Shown here one piece after another: positions 1 to 29,219 of a DNA stretch of 29,219 bases; the first letter of the stretch is position 1; each line of letters starts with the position of its first letter. The stretch comes from a virus: positions 1 to 29,219 of IMG/VR virus record IMGVR_UViG_3300025137_000184; one strand, 5' to 3'. The position numbers were made by a program, and so were the translations under genes. The notes beneath the pieces were generated by a model. It saw only the letters and a list, made by a program, of their open reading frames with translations, had not been told where the DNA came from and did not search any database.

Positions 1-99
1 ATAAAAGATTTTTAACTAATGCACCTACTACTCAATACGCTAATGATGGCGACTACGGTACTTTGGCATTTATGACACCCTCAGTTGATGCTGCTGATA
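1..99. repeat. terminal direct repeat, left copy (circular closure)
   Basis: The first 99 bases are identical to the last 99 (29121-29219). The repeat lies inside a coding sequence, and joining the ends at the repeat makes one uninterrupted frame of exactly 476 codons including the stop. This is what a circularly closed assembly with a k-mer-sized overlap looks like. It fits a circularly permuted or circularised phage genome of 29,120 bp. A real short terminal redundancy is possible, but 99 bp inside a tail gene makes the assembly overlap more likely. Confidence 0.95.
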
Positions 100-6040: not shown

Positions 6041-6054
6041 ATCTATTATATTAT
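6041..6054 (+). promoter_or_regulatory. recurrent AT motif, copy 1 (candidate phage promoter)
   Basis: ATCTATTATATTAT ends directly at the ATG of the head protease. It is one of five near-identical copies located just upstream of gene starts (others at 6782, 9212, 21838, 25789). An AACTAA lies a few bases upstream, as in several other copies. It could be the core of a phage-specific promoter giving an almost leaderless mRNA, or a translation-enhancing leader. Confidence 0.5.
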
Positions 6055-6774
6055 ATGCCATGTAAAGAGTGTACAGAAGGAAAAGTAAAATGGGGAGAGT
6101 CAGGAGAATGTAAATACGATTCTATCGCTGAATGTGAAGCAGCTAACAAAGACTATTACGAAAATCTTAAAACTACTTCTATTGTAGAGTTAGTTATTGA
6201 TGATGATAGTCAAGAGTTAGCTATTGATGCTATTAGCTTAGTGTCAGCACCTGCAATTGAGCAAGACTTTGTTTATTTTGGAAAAGAAAAGAACAATTTA
6301 ACATTTGCAAAGATTGATGAAGAAAAGCGTATGCTAGTTAGTCCTGCACTTATCCCTAATAAGCAAATATTTAGATATGATCCTAATACTGATTCAGAAT
6401 ACTATGTTTACTTTAGTCCTGATACAGTTAGAAAAGCTAGTGAGTTATATTTAAAACATAACAACCATCATAAAGCAACCTACGAACACCAAGATAGAGT
6501 TTCAGGAGTTTTAACAGTTGAAAGTTGGATAAAAGAAGGGGATATGGATAAGTCAAAGCTTTACGGATATGATTTACCTAATGGCACTTGGTTTGTTAAA
6601 ATGAAGATAAACAACGAAGAACTATGGCAAAAGGTAAAAGCAGGTGAACTTAAAGGGCTATCTATTGAAGGGTACTTTACGGACAAAATGGAAAAGATGT
6701 CAGAAAAAGCACCAACTGATGAAGAAATATTAAAAGCTCTTAACGAGATAATACGTGAAAATCAAACAAAGTAA
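6055..6774 (+). CDS. prohead maturation protease (XkdF-like serine protease)
   Basis: 239 residues. It matches the XkdF-like group of phage head proteases: a histidine in YEHQD (His145), a beta region, then the nucleophile context KGLSIEGYF (Ser203). Such enzymes cut the scaffold and capsid N-termini during head maturation inside the host cell. The gene sits directly before the scaffold and capsid genes, the usual order. An N-terminal segment with four cysteines (C3, C6, C19, C27; CKECTEGKVKWGESGECKYD) precedes the protease domain and could bind a metal. The C-terminal 25 residues are helical and charged. Catalytic assignment is by motif, not by structure. Confidence 0.75.
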   Translation: MPCKECTEGKVKWGESGECKYDSIAECEAANKDYYENLKTTSIVELVIDDDSQELAIDAISLVSAPAIEQDFVYFGKEKNNLTFAKIDEEKRMLVSPALIPNKQIFRYDPNTDSEYYVYFSPDTVRKASELYLKHNNHHKATYEHQDRVSGVLTVESWIKEGDMDKSKLYGYDLPNGTWFVKMKINNEELWQKVKAGELKGLSIEGYFTDKMEKMSEKAPTDEEILKALNEIIRENQTK

Positions 6775-6781
6775 CTAACTA

Positions 6782-6794
6782 TTCTATTATATTA
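6782..6794 (+). promoter_or_regulatory. recurrent AT motif, copy 2 (candidate phage promoter)
   Basis: TTCTATTATATTA lies 11 bases before the ATG of the scaffold gene. It shares its first 13 bases with copies 3 and 5. It is the only copy with a short A-rich leader between motif and start (22 bases from the C of TTC to the ATG, against 12-14 elsewhere). This favours a transcriptional role over a purely translational one. Confidence 0.45.
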
Positions 6795-9211: not shown

Positions 9212-9227
9212 TTCTATTATATTATAT
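9212..9227 (+). promoter_or_regulatory. recurrent AT motif, copy 3 (candidate phage promoter)
   Basis: TTCTATTATATTATAT runs directly into the ATG at 9228. It follows a strong terminator, so a new transcript has to begin about here for the downstream genes. This copy is identical over 16 bases to copy 5 at 25789, which also follows a terminator. Confidence 0.55.
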
Positions 9228-21837: not shown

Positions 21838-21848
21838 TTCTATTATAT
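21838..21848 (+). promoter_or_regulatory. recurrent AT motif, copy 4 (candidate phage promoter)
   Basis: TTCTATTATAT, then ACT, then the ATG at 21852. The second half of the motif is degenerate, while the first 11 bases are conserved. It is preceded by TAACTAAAAA, like other copies. It would start the transcript of the ParB, glycosyltransferase, dioxygenase and terminase genes. Confidence 0.5.
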
Positions 21849-21851
21849 ACT

Positions 21852-22409
21852 ATGAAACTAAAAATCAACCAATTAAAACCAAATAGCAGCAATCCAAGAA
21901 TAATTAAAGAAGCAAAATTCAAAAAGCTTGTACAAAGCATTAAAGACTTTCCTGAAATGTTAGAGCTAAGACCTGTTATATTAGATGAAGATATGACTAT
22001 CTTAGGGGGTAATATGAGATACAAAGCTTGTGTAGAAGCAGGTTTAAAAGAAGTCCCTGTTAAAATAGCTAAAGGATTAACAGAAGAACAAAAGCAAGAG
22101 TTCATAGTAAAAGACAATGTAGGGTTCGGAGAATGGGATTGGGATGCTTTAGGCAACGAATGGGATAATGTTAAGTTAGGAGAATGGGGTATGGATGTAT
22201 GGCAACCTGAAGAAGCAGTAGACTATTCTGTATTAGATGACATAGACTTAGGATCAACATTGCACGAAAAAGAAAAAGGTGTAAAGAGAGCTATACAAAT
22301 AGAGTTTAGTGCCGAGCATTATGAAGAAGCAAACAACCTAATAAACAAAGCAAGATCGGAAGGTAAGAATGTAGGGCTAATTGTTTTAAACGCTTTAAAG
22401 AATGATTAA
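21852..22409 (+). CDS. ParB/sulfiredoxin-fold nuclease-domain protein
   Basis: 185 residues. Residues ~1-75 match the ParB N-terminal domain: INQLKPNSSNPR, FKKLVQSIKDFP, RPVILDEDMTILGGNMRYKA (GGNMR at 52-56, the nucleotide-binding arm). ParB-type domains in phages occur next to DNA methylases, modification enzymes and terminases, where they may bind CTP or ATP and DNA. The C-terminal part (KRAIQIEFSAEHYEEANNLI) is a separate small domain. There is no helix-turn-helix of plasmid ParB, so partitioning is unlikely. Its 8-base overlap with the glycosyltransferase gene ties it to the modification cassette. Confidence 0.75.
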   Translation: MKLKINQLKPNSSNPRIIKEAKFKKLVQSIKDFPEMLELRPVILDEDMTILGGNMRYKACVEAGLKEVPVKIAKGLTEEQKQEFIVKDNVGFGEWDWDALGNEWDNVKLGEWGMDVWQPEEAVDYSVLDDIDLGSTLHEKEKGVKRAIQIEFSAEHYEEANNLINKARSEGKNVGLIVLNALKND

Positions 22410-23238
22410 AGTTTTTACTTTTTTTTACAACAGGTTTACAGATGCGACAACCTCCATAGCTTTAAAAGAAAATGGAATAGAACATAATGTATTAATTCAC
22501 AAAGAAGAAGATTATATAAAATTCAAAGAAGGTGGTACTATAGGTGGAAATCCTATCATAACCAACCAACCTAAAGGACTGGCATACCAAAGAAATGCAG
22601 CTTTAGATTTAATGGAAAAAGATGAATGGGCAGTTTTTATGTGTGATGACTTTCAAAAAATACTGTCATACCCTATTAAAGAAATAATGAACAAGCACAC
22701 TAAAATAAATGTAACTATTGAAAATCAATCAGAATATCAACTAACAAACGAAAAACACAAAATGTCTTTAAAAGAAATGTTTACTATGTTTCCTAGACTA
22801 ATTAAACTTGCTGAAAAAAATAACATAAAATTAATTGGCTTTGGTTTACATTCTAATCCTTTAAATTTAGGAAGAAAGTTTGCAACAAGAGGTTTGGCTG
22901 ACGGTAGGTTTTGGTTAGTAAAAAAATCAGATTATAGGTTTGATGAAAACGTGCAAATGGTAGATGATGTTTGTTGGACAGCAGAAAACCTTATAAGGCA
23001 TAACAACGTGTTAATCTTAAATTGGACAGTACCATTTTTTAAAAGATATACTGCAGGTGCTTTTGGAAGTATTTCAGAAAGAAAAGAACAGAGATTAAAA
23101 GAGTGTAAATATTTGGCAAACAAATTTAATCCATTAATACGTATAGCAAACAAAGCTAATTGGGATTATGGAACTCACGTTAGAATTTATGGTAGTAATA
23201 ATAATATTAAAAAAGCAAGATTAAATAACGGATTATGA
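22402..23238 (+). CDS. GT-A-type glycosyltransferase, probably acting on modified DNA bases
   Basis: 278 residues. The N-terminus MIKVFTFFYNRFTDATTSIA is a short beta strand and helix as in GT-A enzymes. Then GLAYQRNAALDLMEKDEWAV leads to FMCDDF, where D82-D83 stands at the metal/nucleotide-sugar site (DxD-like). RFWLVKKSDYRF and VDDVCW (D188-D189) fit the acceptor side. It lies directly before a TET/JBP-like dioxygenase gene with an ATGA overlap. In phages such pairs make hydroxylated bases that are then glycosylated. I infer that it transfers a sugar to hydroxymethylated phage DNA. A role in modifying host surface sugars cannot be excluded. Confidence 0.65.
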   Translation: MIKVFTFFYNRFTDATTSIALKENGIEHNVLIHKEEDYIKFKEGGTIGGNPIITNQPKGLAYQRNAALDLMEKDEWAVFMCDDFQKILSYPIKEIMNKHTKINVTIENQSEYQLTNEKHKMSLKEMFTMFPRLIKLAEKNNIKLIGFGLHSNPLNLGRKFATRGLADGRFWLVKKSDYRFDENVQMVDDVCWTAENLIRHNNVLILNWTVPFFKRYTAGAFGSISERKEQRLKECKYLANKFNPLIRIANKANWDYGTHVRIYGSNNNIKKARLNNGL

Positions 23239-24038
23239 AAACAATAAAACTAAAAAAAGTAGAACACAAAGTCAAGATAGGAGATAAATGCCAATACTAC
23301 GAACCAAACGTAAAAGAAGATTGCTTGTTAGACCTAGATGGTGAGATTGTTGGATTTTATATTAAAGATGTAAATAAATACTCTAAAAAGCTAAACCAAT
23401 TATTAGCTATTGCAGACAAAGAATTTAGGGGTGAGAATGTTCCTAAAAGCACTATGACAAGAAGTCAAGCATTAATGACTAGTTATAAAAAAACAGGTGA
23501 CTATAAATCTGAGAACACAGTTCAACAATACTCTACTATTTTAGGAAGTGTTGCACCTAGACCTCATATGCGTAGACCTTACCCCAACATATCTTCAGTT
23601 CATAGAGATAAAAAGGCACAAACATTTATTAAAGCAATGTGGGGTTCTTGTTTAGAAGCAGAACAAATCATAAAAGATCTTACTCCTAAAATACACGAAA
23701 GACAAATTGAACTCTTTAAAGATATAAAGGATGAATGGAAGTTTGGAACAATGTACACAAGCAGTATATCTAATTTCAATATTGCAGCACCATTTCACAG
23801 GGACACAGGTAACTTAGAGGGAACAGTAAATATTATCCTAACCAAAAGAAACAACTCTAATGGTGGGTGTTTAAATGTGCCTGACTATAATGTAACATTT
23901 GAACAGGCAGACAATTCAATGTTAGTTTATCCTGCTTGGAAAAACGTACACGGAGTAACACCAATAAAACCAATAGCAGAAAATGGTTATAGAAACAGTT
24001 TAATATTCTATCCGTTAAAAGCTTTTAAAGGAATATAG
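23235..24038 (+). CDS. TET/JBP-like 2-oxoglutarate/Fe(II) dioxygenase (DNA base hydroxylase)
   Basis: 267 residues. The catalytic core lies in the last third: FHRDTGN with the iron ligands His188 and Asp190, the third ligand His239 in NVHGVTPI, and Arg253 (YRNSLIFYP) placed to bind 2-oxoglutarate. The HRDxGN context and the GGCLNVPDYNVTFEQADNSM strand fit the TET/JBP family, which oxidises the methyl group of thymine or 5-methylcytosine in DNA. The N-terminal part has a basic segment PRPHMRRPYPNISSVHRD (108-125). It is coupled to the glycosyltransferase gene and ends one base before terS. The family assignment is strong at the level of the dioxygenase; TET/JBP membership is likely. The base substrate is unknown. 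Confidence 0.75.
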   Translation: MKTIKLKKVEHKVKIGDKCQYYEPNVKEDCLLDLDGEIVGFYIKDVNKYSKKLNQLLAIADKEFRGENVPKSTMTRSQALMTSYKKTGDYKSENTVQQYSTILGSVAPRPHMRRPYPNISSVHRDKKAQTFIKAMWGSCLEAEQIIKDLTPKIHERQIELFKDIKDEWKFGTMYTSSISNFNIAAPFHRDTGNLEGTVNIILTKRNNSNGGCLNVPDYNVTFEQADNSMLVYPAWKNVHGVTPIKPIAENGYRNSLIFYPLKAFKGI

Positions 24039-24039
24039 T

Positions 24040-24393
24040 ATGGACAAAAGTAGACATATAAAAAAGGAAACAATGCTCAAAGCTTTAGAAAGTAGTTTGG
24101 GGGTTGTGACAGTTGCTTGTAAACAAGCTGATATACCACGCTCAACATATTACAAATGGCTAAACGAAGATAAGGAGTTTGCAAAGGAAGTAAAAGAAAT
24201 TGAGAACATAGCACTAGACTTTGGGGAAAGTCAATTACACGCACAAATGAAAGATGGCAACACTTCAGCAACTATATTCTTTTTAAAAACTAAAGGCAAG
24301 AAACGTGGTTATGTTGAAAGATCTGAATTAGATTTAAGCTCAGGAGATGAGCCTGTTAAGATTAACGTAAACATAAAAGGAGTTGAACATTGA
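24040..24393 (+). CDS. terS: terminase small subunit
   Basis: 117 residues. Residues ~8-45 form a helix-turn-helix (MLKALESSLGVVTVACKQAD, IPRSTYYKWLNEDKEFAKEV) typical of small terminase subunits that recognise the packaging start. Next is a helical oligomerisation region (IALDFGESQLHAQMKDGNTS) and a C-terminal beta end (EPVKINVNIKGVEH). Immediately upstream of terL and overlapping it by 11 bases. It binds viral DNA and regulates the large subunit. Confidence 0.8.
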   Translation: MDKSRHIKKETMLKALESSLGVVTVACKQADIPRSTYYKWLNEDKEFAKEVKEIENIALDFGESQLHAQMKDGNTSATIFFLKTKGKKRGYVERSELDLSSGDEPVKINVNIKGVEH

Positions 24394-25693
24394 TGCTAAC
24401 TTTACGCATACGCAAGAACAGGCAATAGAATATCTATTTGACAAAACCACAACTGAAGTTTTGTTTGGAGGTGCAGCAGGTGGTGGTAAGTCTTGGGTGG
24501 GTTGTAGTTGGTTAGTATTAATGTGTATAAAACATCCTAAGACAAGATACCTAATGGGTAGGTCTAAGCTTGATGCTTTAAAGAAAACAACACTAAACAC
24601 TTTTTTTGAGGTTTGTGAAACTTGGGGATTGCAGTCAGGCAAACACTACACATTTAATGGTGGTTCAAACATAATAACCTTTTATAATAAGTCTGAGATT
24701 ATGTTAAAAGATTTATTTCTTTATCCTAGTGACAGGAACTTTGACAGCTTAGGATCTTTAGAAATTACAGGTGCTTTTATTGATGAAGCAAATCAGATTA
24801 CAGAAAAAGCAAAAAACATTGTAGCATCAAGAATGAGATACAAATTAGATGAATACAACTTAATACCAAAGATGTTAATGACTTGTAATCCTGCAAAGAA
24901 TTGGGTGTACACGCAATACTATAGACCTGCTAAAGATGGTAAACAAAAATCACACAGAAAGTTTATACAAAGTTTAGTTGATGACAATGAGTATATATCT
25001 AAGTTTTATAAAAAACAATTAGAAACACTTGATGAATTAAGCAAACAAAGATTGCTATTTGGTAATTGGGAGTATGATGCTACTAAAGATAGTTTAATAC
25101 AATATGATGCTATTATCAATATGTTTGAACAAAAAGGAGTAGAAGGAGAAAAATACATAAGTTGTGATGTTGCGAGGTTTGGAAGCGATAAGACAGTTAT
25201 AATGCTTTGGGAAGGGCTAAACCTTATAACTATAAGAACGTTGCTTAAATCGGCTGTAAATGATGTTGTTGAAGCTGTTAGACAATTACAACAAGAATAC
25301 AAAGTTGATTTGCGAAATATAATTGTTGATGAGGATGGTGTTGGAGGTGGGGTTAAAGATTATTTGAGGTGTCAGGGTTTTGTAAACAATTCCAAAGCTT
25401 TAAAAGGAGAAAACTATCAAAACTTAAAAACACAATGTTATTATAAATTAGCTGACTTAATAAATAAAGGGCAGTTAGGTGTCAGGTGTTCTGATGTAAA
25501 TGTGAAGAACTATATTATAGAAGAATGTGAGCAAGTGAGAACAAAAGATGCCGAAAAAGACAATAAGTTACAGATAATACCTAAAGACACAATAAAAGCA
25601 ATTATAGGTAGATCTCCTGATTATTCAGATGCTTTGGCTATGAGGATGTATTTTGAAATAGATGGTAATTATGGAAAATACTTTGTACAATAA
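24383..25693 (+). CDS. terL: terminase large subunit
   Basis: 436 residues. The ATPase domain has a Walker A GGAAGGGKS (29-37), a Walker B FIDEANQ (Asp134-Glu135) and a coupling motif region MLMTCNPAKNW. The RNase H-like nuclease has acidic residues in CDVARFG (Asp262), IIVDEDGVGGG (Asp316) and SPDYSDALAM (Asp416). It pumps DNA into the prohead and cuts it. No ATG is available: the frame offers TTG at 24383, or ATT at 24389 which overlaps the terS stop. The TTG is taken here. A strong terminator follows at once. Confidence 0.9.
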   Translation: MNIDANFTHTQEQAIEYLFDKTTTEVLFGGAAGGGKSWVGCSWLVLMCIKHPKTRYLMGRSKLDALKKTTLNTFFEVCETWGLQSGKHYTFNGGSNIITFYNKSEIMLKDLFLYPSDRNFDSLGSLEITGAFIDEANQITEKAKNIVASRMRYKLDEYNLIPKMLMTCNPAKNWVYTQYYRPAKDGKQKSHRKFIQSLVDDNEYISKFYKKQLETLDELSKQRLLFGNWEYDATKDSLIQYDAIINMFEQKGVEGEKYISCDVARFGSDKTVIMLWEGLNLITIRTLLKSAVNDVVEAVRQLQQEYKVDLRNIIVDEDGVGGGVKDYLRCQGFVNNSKALKGENYQNLKTQCYYKLADLINKGQLGVRCSDVNVKNYIIEECEQVRTKDAEKDNKLQIIPKDTIKAIIGRSPDYSDALAMRMYFEIDGNYGKYFVQ

Positions 25694-25788: not shown

Positions 25789-25804
25789 TTCTATTATATT
25801 ATAT
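25789..25804 (+). promoter_or_regulatory. recurrent AT motif, copy 5 (candidate phage promoter)
   Basis: TTCTATTATATTATAT ends directly at the ATG of the tail assembly chaperone gene. It lies after a strong terminator, so a new transcript must begin here for the tail genes. It is identical over 16 bases to copy 3. Confidence 0.55.
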
Positions 25805-26404
25805 ATGAAGGTTAAAATTAAGAAGAAGGGCAAAGTAAAGCAGTTCAAATTAATTAGCAGTTGGGAAGAAGTAACATTAGAGAAGTGGTTAAAGCTGATT
25901 AATTATAGTTTAGGAACAAAAAGTAAAGAAGCTCAAGATACGATTGCTGAGCTGTCTAATATTCCAAAGGATTTAATCAATCAGTTGGAGTTAAAAGATG
26001 TAGCACTTATAATGAGTAAAATGGCTGAGCTACAAGCCGAGCAAAATAGTTCTTTAAAAAGAGTAATAGAAGTAAAAGGAAAGAGGTATGGGTTTCACCC
26101 TAATTTAGATGAAATCACTTTGGGAGAGTTTGCTGATATAGAAACATTTATTAAGAGTGATATTGAAAAAAACTTACCTGAATTGATGGCTATATTGTAT
26201 AGACCAATAGTAGAAGAAAACAATGATGTTTATACTATTAAAGCTTATGATGGCGATATAAGTATTAGGGCTGAAGAGATGAAACAGATGTCAGCAGAGC
26301 AAGTGCAAAGTGCATTGGTTTTTTTTTGGAATTTCGTGAACGTATTGTTAATGACTTCAGGGTTATCTTTGATGGAACACCTGAAGGAAACGAAGAAGCA
26401 ATAG
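25805..26404 (+). CDS. tail assembly chaperone, short form (gpG-like)
   Basis: 199 residues. The protein is helical and charged (TISLGEF-like segment DEITLGEFADIETFIKSDIE; ELMAILYRP), a pattern that I associate with the first of two chaperones preceding the tail genes of Bacteroidota phages. At 26319-26327 it reads through nine T residues. The frame then continues 26 codons past the slip site to a stop at 26404. In siphoviruses the short form is made in excess and helps to fold and assemble the tape measure. The gene opens the tail block, separated from terL by the terminator and an AT motif. Confidence 0.75.
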   Translation: MKVKIKKKGKVKQFKLISSWEEVTLEKWLKLINYSLGTKSKEAQDTIAELSNIPKDLINQLELKDVALIMSKMAELQAEQNSSLKRVIEVKGKRYGFHPNLDEITLGEFADIETFIKSDIEKNLPELMAILYRPIVEENNDVYTIKAYDGDISIRAEEMKQMSAEQVQSALVFFWNFVNVLLMTSGLSLMEHLKETKKQ

Positions 26405-28534: not shown

Positions 28535-29219
28535 ATGGCACAATCAAACATAGACCAAGCACCATATAAAAGTCAAGCAAGTAGTATTCTTTTAACACCT
28601 GTTGAGCAAGAGATAATTTTTGTAATTGAGAATGATGATGCAGTAGCTAATGAAGTAAAAGTAAAATTTGGAGTTGAGGTTCATATAGGAACAAACTCTC
28701 TTAACCCTTCAACTACTGATGATCAAATTGGAATATTTAAAGCAAGCCCTAACAATGCAGGTAAAGGAATTTTTAACTTTCAAGATATAGTAAGTAATTA
28801 TGTAAAGGCAGATAATTTAGCAGGTAGGGCTAGTAGATATAAAACAGTACAACAAGGTATTAATACTCAAAAATACCCAATTCACTTAATAGATAAATTC
28901 TCCTCAAACGAAAATTCTATAAGATATTTTATGTGCCAATTTTTTGTAGAATTTCTTAATACTACAACTAATCAAGTAGAGAGAGCAGGTTTTACTAATA
29001 GAAATTCAGATCAATATATGCTGATTAACTCTTATGTTAAATATACTGATTCTTTAGAAATAGATTTTCCTAATTTTGGTTTTAATATGGATAGCTTTAT
29101 TCCAAGTGGTACTGCTGCTAATAAAAGATTTTTAACTAATGCACCTACTACTCAATACGCTAATGATGGCGACTACGGTACTTTGGCATTTATGACACCC
29201 TCAGTTGATGCTGCTGATA
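28535..29219 (+). CDS. tail protein, 5' part of the gene split by the contig ends
   Basis: This is the N-terminal part of a 475-residue protein whose remainder is at 1-842. It starts with ATG (MAQSNIDQAPYK) one base after the stop of the HK97 gp10-like gene. No stop occurs before the contig end, and the last codon of the unique sequence (base 29120 plus bases 1-2) reads AAT, keeping the frame across the junction. The protein is beta-rich, without signal peptide or membrane segment. By sequence style and place (after the neck genes, before the 904-residue tail protein) I take it as a distal-tail or tail-tip structural protein of the type seen in Bacteroidota phages. The exact tail role is inferred. 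Confidence 0.8.
   Translation, partial: MAQSNIDQAPYKSQASSILLTPVEQEIIFVIENDDAVANEVKVKFGVEVHIGTNSLNPSTTDDQIGIFKASPNNAGKGIFNFQDIVSNYVKADNLAGRASRYKTVQQGINTQKYPIHLIDKFSSNENSIRYFMCQFFVEFLNTTTNQVERAGFTNRNSDQYMLINSYVKYTDSLEIDFPNFGFNMDSFIPSGTAANKRFLTNAPTTQYANDGDYGTLAFMTPSVDAAD
29121..29219. repeat. terminal direct repeat, right copy (circular closure)
   Basis: Exact copy of bases 1-99. It marks the point where the contig closes on itself. The tail gene beginning at 28535 runs through this copy and continues in frame at base 100. Confidence 0.95.

Follow-up and report, generated by a model that had tools for sequence, protein, structure and literature searches.

A predicted DNA-base hypermodification cassette with an exchangeable capping slot beside the terminase genes of a 29-kb environmental phage

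What would three tightly coupled genes, placed directly ahead of the terminase of a small environmental phage, do to the DNA that is about to be packaged? We addressed this question for a marine phage in IMG/VR virus record IMGVR_UViG_3300025137_000184, whose 29,219 nucleotides (nt) we call the window. On its plus strand it encodes a ParB N-terminal-domain protein of 185 amino acids (aa; 21852..22409), a predicted GT-A-like glycosyltransferase (GT) of the TAGT type that acts on DNA (278 aa; 22402..23238) and a TET/JBP-family 2-oxoglutarate-Fe(II) dioxygenase (267 aa; 23235..24038). A preliminary description made from the sequence alone had reported overlaps of 8 bases between ParB and GT and of 4 bases between GT and dioxygenase, an aspartate pair at 82-83 of the GT, the residues H188-x-D190, H239 and R253 in the dioxygenase and a direct run into terS-terL, and on re-checking the open reading frames and all these features proved exact. 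The gene order is common to many IMG/VR contigs, among which 195 distinct related loci were found, and the cassette is therefore not a chance set of open reading frames. We consider it probable that these genes form a post-replicative DNA-base hypermodification cassette co-expressed with the packaging genes, in which the TET enzyme oxidises a base, most likely thymine, and the GT adds a sugar.

The assignment of the dioxygenase rests on profile and fold. PF12851 (Tet_JBP) was its sole Pfam match (E 1.6e-8), with a score of 34.4 bits that falls 0.5 bit short of the curated cut-off of 34.9, and the same family was matched by 35/35 aligned homologues (best E 7e-15). Since PDB sequence searches were weak for this protein (E 0.55 at best for the single sequence, to CcTet, and 0.022 for the profile, to TET2) and gave no matches for the GT, either with the single sequence or with the profile, fold comparison was used for both enzymes. 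When the AlphaFold2 model of the dioxygenase (predicted local distance difference test, pLDDT, 91) was compared with the PDB, ranks 1 to 26 all went to TET-family proteins (TET2, CcTet, NgTET1, CMD1; E 3e-12 to 3e-8), and AlkB and FTO ranked below them. Moreover, H188, D190, H239 and R253 are invariant across 35 homologues, and a profile alignment pairs the HRD..N and H/R motifs of the window enzyme with those of TET2. By profile and predicted fold the enzyme is thus a TET-family dioxygenase, as had been proposed, and a protein hydroxylase or small-molecule dioxygenase was rejected because the top 26 fold matches all belong to the TET family. The PHROG label of this protein, queuine tRNA-ribosyltransferase, is at odds with the fold.

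For the GT, the Pfam TAGT (TET-Associated Glycosyltransferase) family (PF20691) was matched by 6/15 homologues (best E 1e-6), and the GTs that occupy the same position in loci L007 and L050, 30% identical to it, pass the cut-off of that family. Comparison of the GT profile with the TAGT set by hhalign gave 98.6% (E 7e-16), and the window GT also matched PHROG 842 (E 1.3e-3). Its AlphaFold2 model (pLDDT 84) found several TAGT-named proteins and a T-even-type beta-glucosyl-HMC-alpha-glucosyltransferase among the viral folds of BFVD; Foldseek against the PDB returned weak, mixed matches only, and tblastn against annotated phages none. D82-D83, which belongs to a CDD at 81-83, is invariant in the 15 homologues. 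The TAGT profile and BFVD fold evidence therefore point to a divergent relative of the TAGT group that modifies DNA in T6, and they place this GT, as anticipated, with TAGT and T-even DNA GTs and not with cell-surface enzymes.

The ParB-domain protein (PF02195, E 6e-7; PHROG 498/620, E 1e-24 to 1e-26) bounds the cassette on its left side and is a fixed part of it. A homologue lies directly upstream of the variable gene in Prochlorococcus phage MED4-184 (32% identity) and in most relatives, and most relatives repeat the order ParB-X-TET-TerS, where X is the variable gene. As regards a role in partition, its N-terminal domain is present, the NCBIfam ParB match covers residues 3-89 only (21 bits against a cut-off of 58), a full-length match including the DNA-binding part was not obtained, and no ParA partner was seen among the window open reading frames searched.

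Downstream, the cassette continues into the terminase small subunit, TerS (117 aa; 24040..24393, plus strand), which matches PHROG 309 (E 1.5e-8) and, weakly and below cut-off, Pfam Sf6_terminase (E 6e-4), and into the large subunit, TerL (436 aa; 24383..25693, plus strand; PF04466, E 8e-17). A motif, TTCTATTATAT, stands just upstream of ParB (21838..21851, plus strand, before the start at 21852) and again before the late gene at 25805 (25789..25799, plus strand; region 25789-25804). Further copies precede other starts (6782-6792 before 6806; 9212-9227 before 9228), and one-mismatch forms occur at 6041 and 6046 (region 6041-6056, before 6055). At all five starts the motif, written TTCTATTATAT(TATATATG), is a few bases from the start codon. 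The window holds 11 matches to TTCTATTATAT against 3.7 expected, a number reached in 0/100 shuffles. The motif is kept before ParB in 45/77 loci and before the homologue of the 25805 gene in 28/29, and it was found before TET in 0/97, before TerS in 0/80 and before GT in 0/28 loci. We read ParB-GT-TET-TerS-TerL as a putative single unit turned on with the late genes, and the earlier suggestion that production is timed to packaging gains support from a promoter-like motif common to the ParB start and late structural genes. Because the motif mostly lies so close to the ATG, transcripts starting from it may be nearly leaderless.

Comparison of the 195 loci indicates that ParB and TET enclose a slot whose gene can be exchanged. 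It holds an FkbM-domain methyltransferase in 83 loci, a TAGT in 60, a window-type GT in 29, a kinase in 10 and a multigene set in 13, the last composed of kinase/(GNAT)/GATase/ADDT except in one locus with a kinase and a second ADDT type. When slot genes in 12 subfamilies were mapped on a tree of 90 TET rows, at least 32 subfamily changes were needed, where 11 would suffice if each subfamily had arisen once; this is a count on the TET tree and not of events, because recombination may blur the tree. Changes of enzyme class numbered 14, where 3 would suffice. In the closest pairs the flanks share 93-97% nt identity, and in L042/L050, L044/L053 and L065/L066 ParB and TET are 95-97% identical, as against about 50%, the background level, in the slot. 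Borders were placed by local alignment in seven pairs: in all 7, homology on the left breaks off 2-13 nt short of the last base of the ParB stop; on the right it returns no more than 15 nt from the start of TET in 6/7, and in L069/L079 it does so 38 nt into TET. Replacement of the slot thus appears near gene-exact, an arrangement for which we found no published description in the part of the literature covered.

The oxidases beside these different genes are nearly the same. TETs 98% identical adjoin a kinase and a GT (L065/L066), TETs 96% identical adjoin FkbM and an ADDT set (L214/L215), and TETs 94% identical adjoin a window-type GT and an ADDT set (L087/L215); overall, TETs are 93-98% identical across slot classes (GTs, kinase, kinase-GATase-ADDT set). 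The slot kinase resembles actinophage kinases, one of them annotated as a 5-hydroxymethyluracil (5-hmU) DNA kinase (hhalign 96.8%, E 2.5e-10), and had no useful match in the PDB, while the freshwater-type multigene set includes a protein that matches both PF18724, the amino acid:DNA transferase (ADDT) family (E 4e-19), and thymine pyrophosphorylase clade 3 (E 3e-6).

Which base would be modified? A TET enzyme acting on 5-methylcytosine (5mC) requires a methyltransferase. The complete window genome has no match to PF00145 (C5-methyltransferase) and none to PF00303 (thymidylate-synthase-type enzymes), and for this reason thymine is favoured over methylcytosine; a TET in a genome that lacks both fits thymidine hypermodification, in which hydroxymethyl-T has a source without a C5-methyltransferase. 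In addition, the slot alternatives point to thymine. Enzymes as similar as these TETs (over 93% identity) are expected to act on one and the same base irrespective of the gene beside them, and 5-hmU is therefore the probable substrate of the GT version. A further lead, and not a proof, comes from the alignment of FYQH of TET2 with FYPL of the window enzyme: the histidine, H1904 of TET2 and a 5mC contact, is replaced by L261, invariant in the family, and base recognition may therefore differ. On these sequence grounds we favour thymine as the substrate with fair confidence, which is limited because both functional names it relies on, 5-hmU kinase and ADDT, are predictions too. The 5-hydroxymethylcytosine (5hmC) of T-even phages is made at the nucleotide level; such a route was rejected here, as no PF00303 was found among 31 records.

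Several points weigh against this interpretation as a whole. The window GT has by itself no match to PF20691, the motif is promoter-like by position only, recombination may, as said, blur the tree on which slot changes were counted, and the substrate is argued through homologues whose "5-hmU kinase" and ADDT labels are predictions. N193 is conserved and matches N1387 of TET2, a 5mC contact, and phage TETs with published activity reportedly act on 5mC (Burke et al. 2021). These last two points would suit the same kind of cassette working on cytosine, with the TET oxidising 5mC whose methyl group comes from a methyltransferase of the host (or from one that escaped detection), and the GT glycosylating 5hmC. 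PF00145 is present in 5/50 viral records, and TAGT of T6 works on glucosylated hydroxymethylcytosine (PMC13390438, PMC13216743), both in line with that alternative. Yet PF00145 is missing from the window genome and from the complete cultured phages with TET relatives (0/10), thymine-pathway alternatives occupy the slot beside TETs more than 93% identical, and the position we equate with H1904 holds the invariant L261, which makes cytosine an unlikely base.

With thymine as the preferred substrate, we infer the following sequence of events. The TET/JBP dioxygenase would hydroxylate a pyrimidine of the phage DNA at its 5-methyl group; this pyrimidine is most likely thymine, and the product 5-hmU. 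The TAGT-type enzyme would add a sugar to the new hydroxyl, and the resulting glycosyl-hydroxymethyluracil would resemble base J, a type of base that in nature is known from kinetoplastids and related organisms. The ParB-domain protein would probably recruit the enzymes to DNA or set their sites, and the modification would probably protect the genome from host nucleases. Across related phages, TET would be the fixed core and the enzyme in the slot would cap the same oxidised base with different groups. We tentatively extend this to a combinatorial decoration of DNA, in which one conserved thymine oxidase is combined with gene-precise swaps of the cap (sugar, methyl, phosphate, amino acid), so that the DNA of close relatives might differ chemically in what is attached to one shared oxidised base, and the window phage would carry the base-J-like form; we hold this extension less firmly than the existence of the cassette or the choice of thymine.

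Slot exchange, as distinct from the activity of the cassette, might instead be the neutral mosaicism usual in phage genomes and not functional diversification. Homologous flanks alone permit gene replacement, and the downstream terminase block is mosaic too: L006 and L041 keep ParB-X-TET and carry a 403-aa TerL (L006:10269-11480; L041:5888-7099) without tblastn match to the window TerL (24383-25693), the TerS of L006 still being 78% identical to that of the window. However, all classified slots hold a plausible DNA-capping enzyme or pathway and not random genes, and ParB and TET persist, so we regard neutrality as a doubtful explanation. That the GT and dioxygenase target host or phage proteins or the cell surface is very improbable, for although GT-A enzymes are frequent in surface glycan synthesis and even the best PDB fold matches for the GT are weak and of mixed kinds, the dioxygenase has TET-family top folds, the GT falls among TAGT and T-even DNA GTs, an amino acid:DNA transferase occurs in the slot of some relatives and the operon continues into the terminase.

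The preliminary description had judged such a compact version little described; the plan as such is not new. TET/JBP-ParB-GT contexts in phages were reportedly noted by Iyer et al. (2013), a link to packaging has been proposed, and phage TET clusters reportedly come paired with a C5-methyltransferase (Burke et al. 2021), an enzyme that the window genome lacks. Among the first genes of Rhodococcus phage Tonitrus are those for ParB, a TET-like protein, aGPT-Pplase2 and a 5-hmU kinase, and this cluster has been published as a possible, predicted thymidine hypermodification system (PMC11955845). Because this ParB-TET-modifier-terminase plan is published, the window cassette belongs to a known kind of system. 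Like the window, Tonitrus and Gordonia phage Wooper have no PF00145 and keep their ParB-domain, TET-like and base-modifying genes close to the terminase at the end of the genome; unlike it, they use as modifiers aGPT-Pplase2/ADDT and a 5-hmU DNA kinase that come after TET, where the window has a single GT between ParB and TET, and the window TET is about 26% identical to theirs. Prochlorococcus phages MED4-184 and MED4-117 share the order ParB-X-TET-TerS-TerL and a TET 48% identical over 98%, but in place of the GT they have a methyltransferase with an FkbM domain (PF05050, E 4e-11), and their annotations call the TET queuine tRNA-ribosyltransferase and the ParB protein DNA methylase. In the cultured flavobacterial Nonlabens phage P12024L, TET adjoins a TAGT-like GT (35% to slot GTs) and PF00145 is again missing, whereas its TET is 27% identical, the order is TET-GT-methyltransferase and the locus lies far from the terminase. 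At a syntenic position, T4 and T6 encode GTs that differ from each other (PMC13390438, PMC13216743). T6 TAGT and T4 beta-GT resemble the window system in offering a TAGT-type GT-A DNA glucosyltransferase and GT exchange at a syntenic position among related phages, but T-even phages have no TET and exchange GT for GT only. What is new is the interchangeable capping slot together with methyltransferase-free complete genomes, and the promoter-like motif that the start of the cassette shares with late structural genes; the enzyme arrangement itself is of a known kind.

If this reading is true, environmental phages would change the chemical coat of their DNA cheaply, keeping the oxidase and swapping the cap, which would matter for the evasion of restriction enzymes specific for particular modified bases. 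The window phage would offer a phage counterpart of base J, and the relatives a set of matched TET-plus-cap pairs with which defined modified DNA could be made. The base oxidised by methyltransferase-free phage TETs is a question approachable in three cultured phages (MED4-184, MED4-117 and P12024L).

The genome itself is closed and effectively complete, at about 29,120 bp, because its terminal direct repeats are exact (1..99 and 29121..29219, no strand assigned), and a relative of 30,387 bp joins the window end to the window start, in agreement with the 29-kb phage first described. The window is AT-rich (33% GC), and Rfam and tRNA scans of it were both empty. Its TerL is closest to those of Flavobacterium phage 11b (55% identity) and Cellulophaga phage phi10:1 (53%), a metallophosphatase is 60% identical to that of Cellulophaga phi14:2 and 52% to that of Nonlabens P12024L, and a DUF3127 protein resembles the annotated single-strand binding protein of P12024L. 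A Bacteroidota-like phage, and the term "flavobacterial-type" used before, fit these similarities.

Some relatives deserve separate mention. In L215 (3428-6004) a kinase, a GNAT, a class II glutamine amidotransferase and an ADDT lie between ParB and TET, which looks like a hypermodification pathway put in as a single block, and the slot of L074 (8599-10004) contains two tandem GT genes of 242 and 226 aa, possibly for a two-step glycosylation. In the record of cultured MED4-184 (L105:6641-8765; ParB-FkbM-TET), the ParB protein is labelled DNA methylase and the TET queuine tRNA-ribosyltransferase, and both labels look wrong from the sequence. Finally, L112 (3234-3764) and mycobacteriophage relatives encode a 5-hmU-kinase-like family (PF18751) matched by 400 records, whose members are often labelled adenylate kinase or terminase small subunit in mycobacteriophage records.
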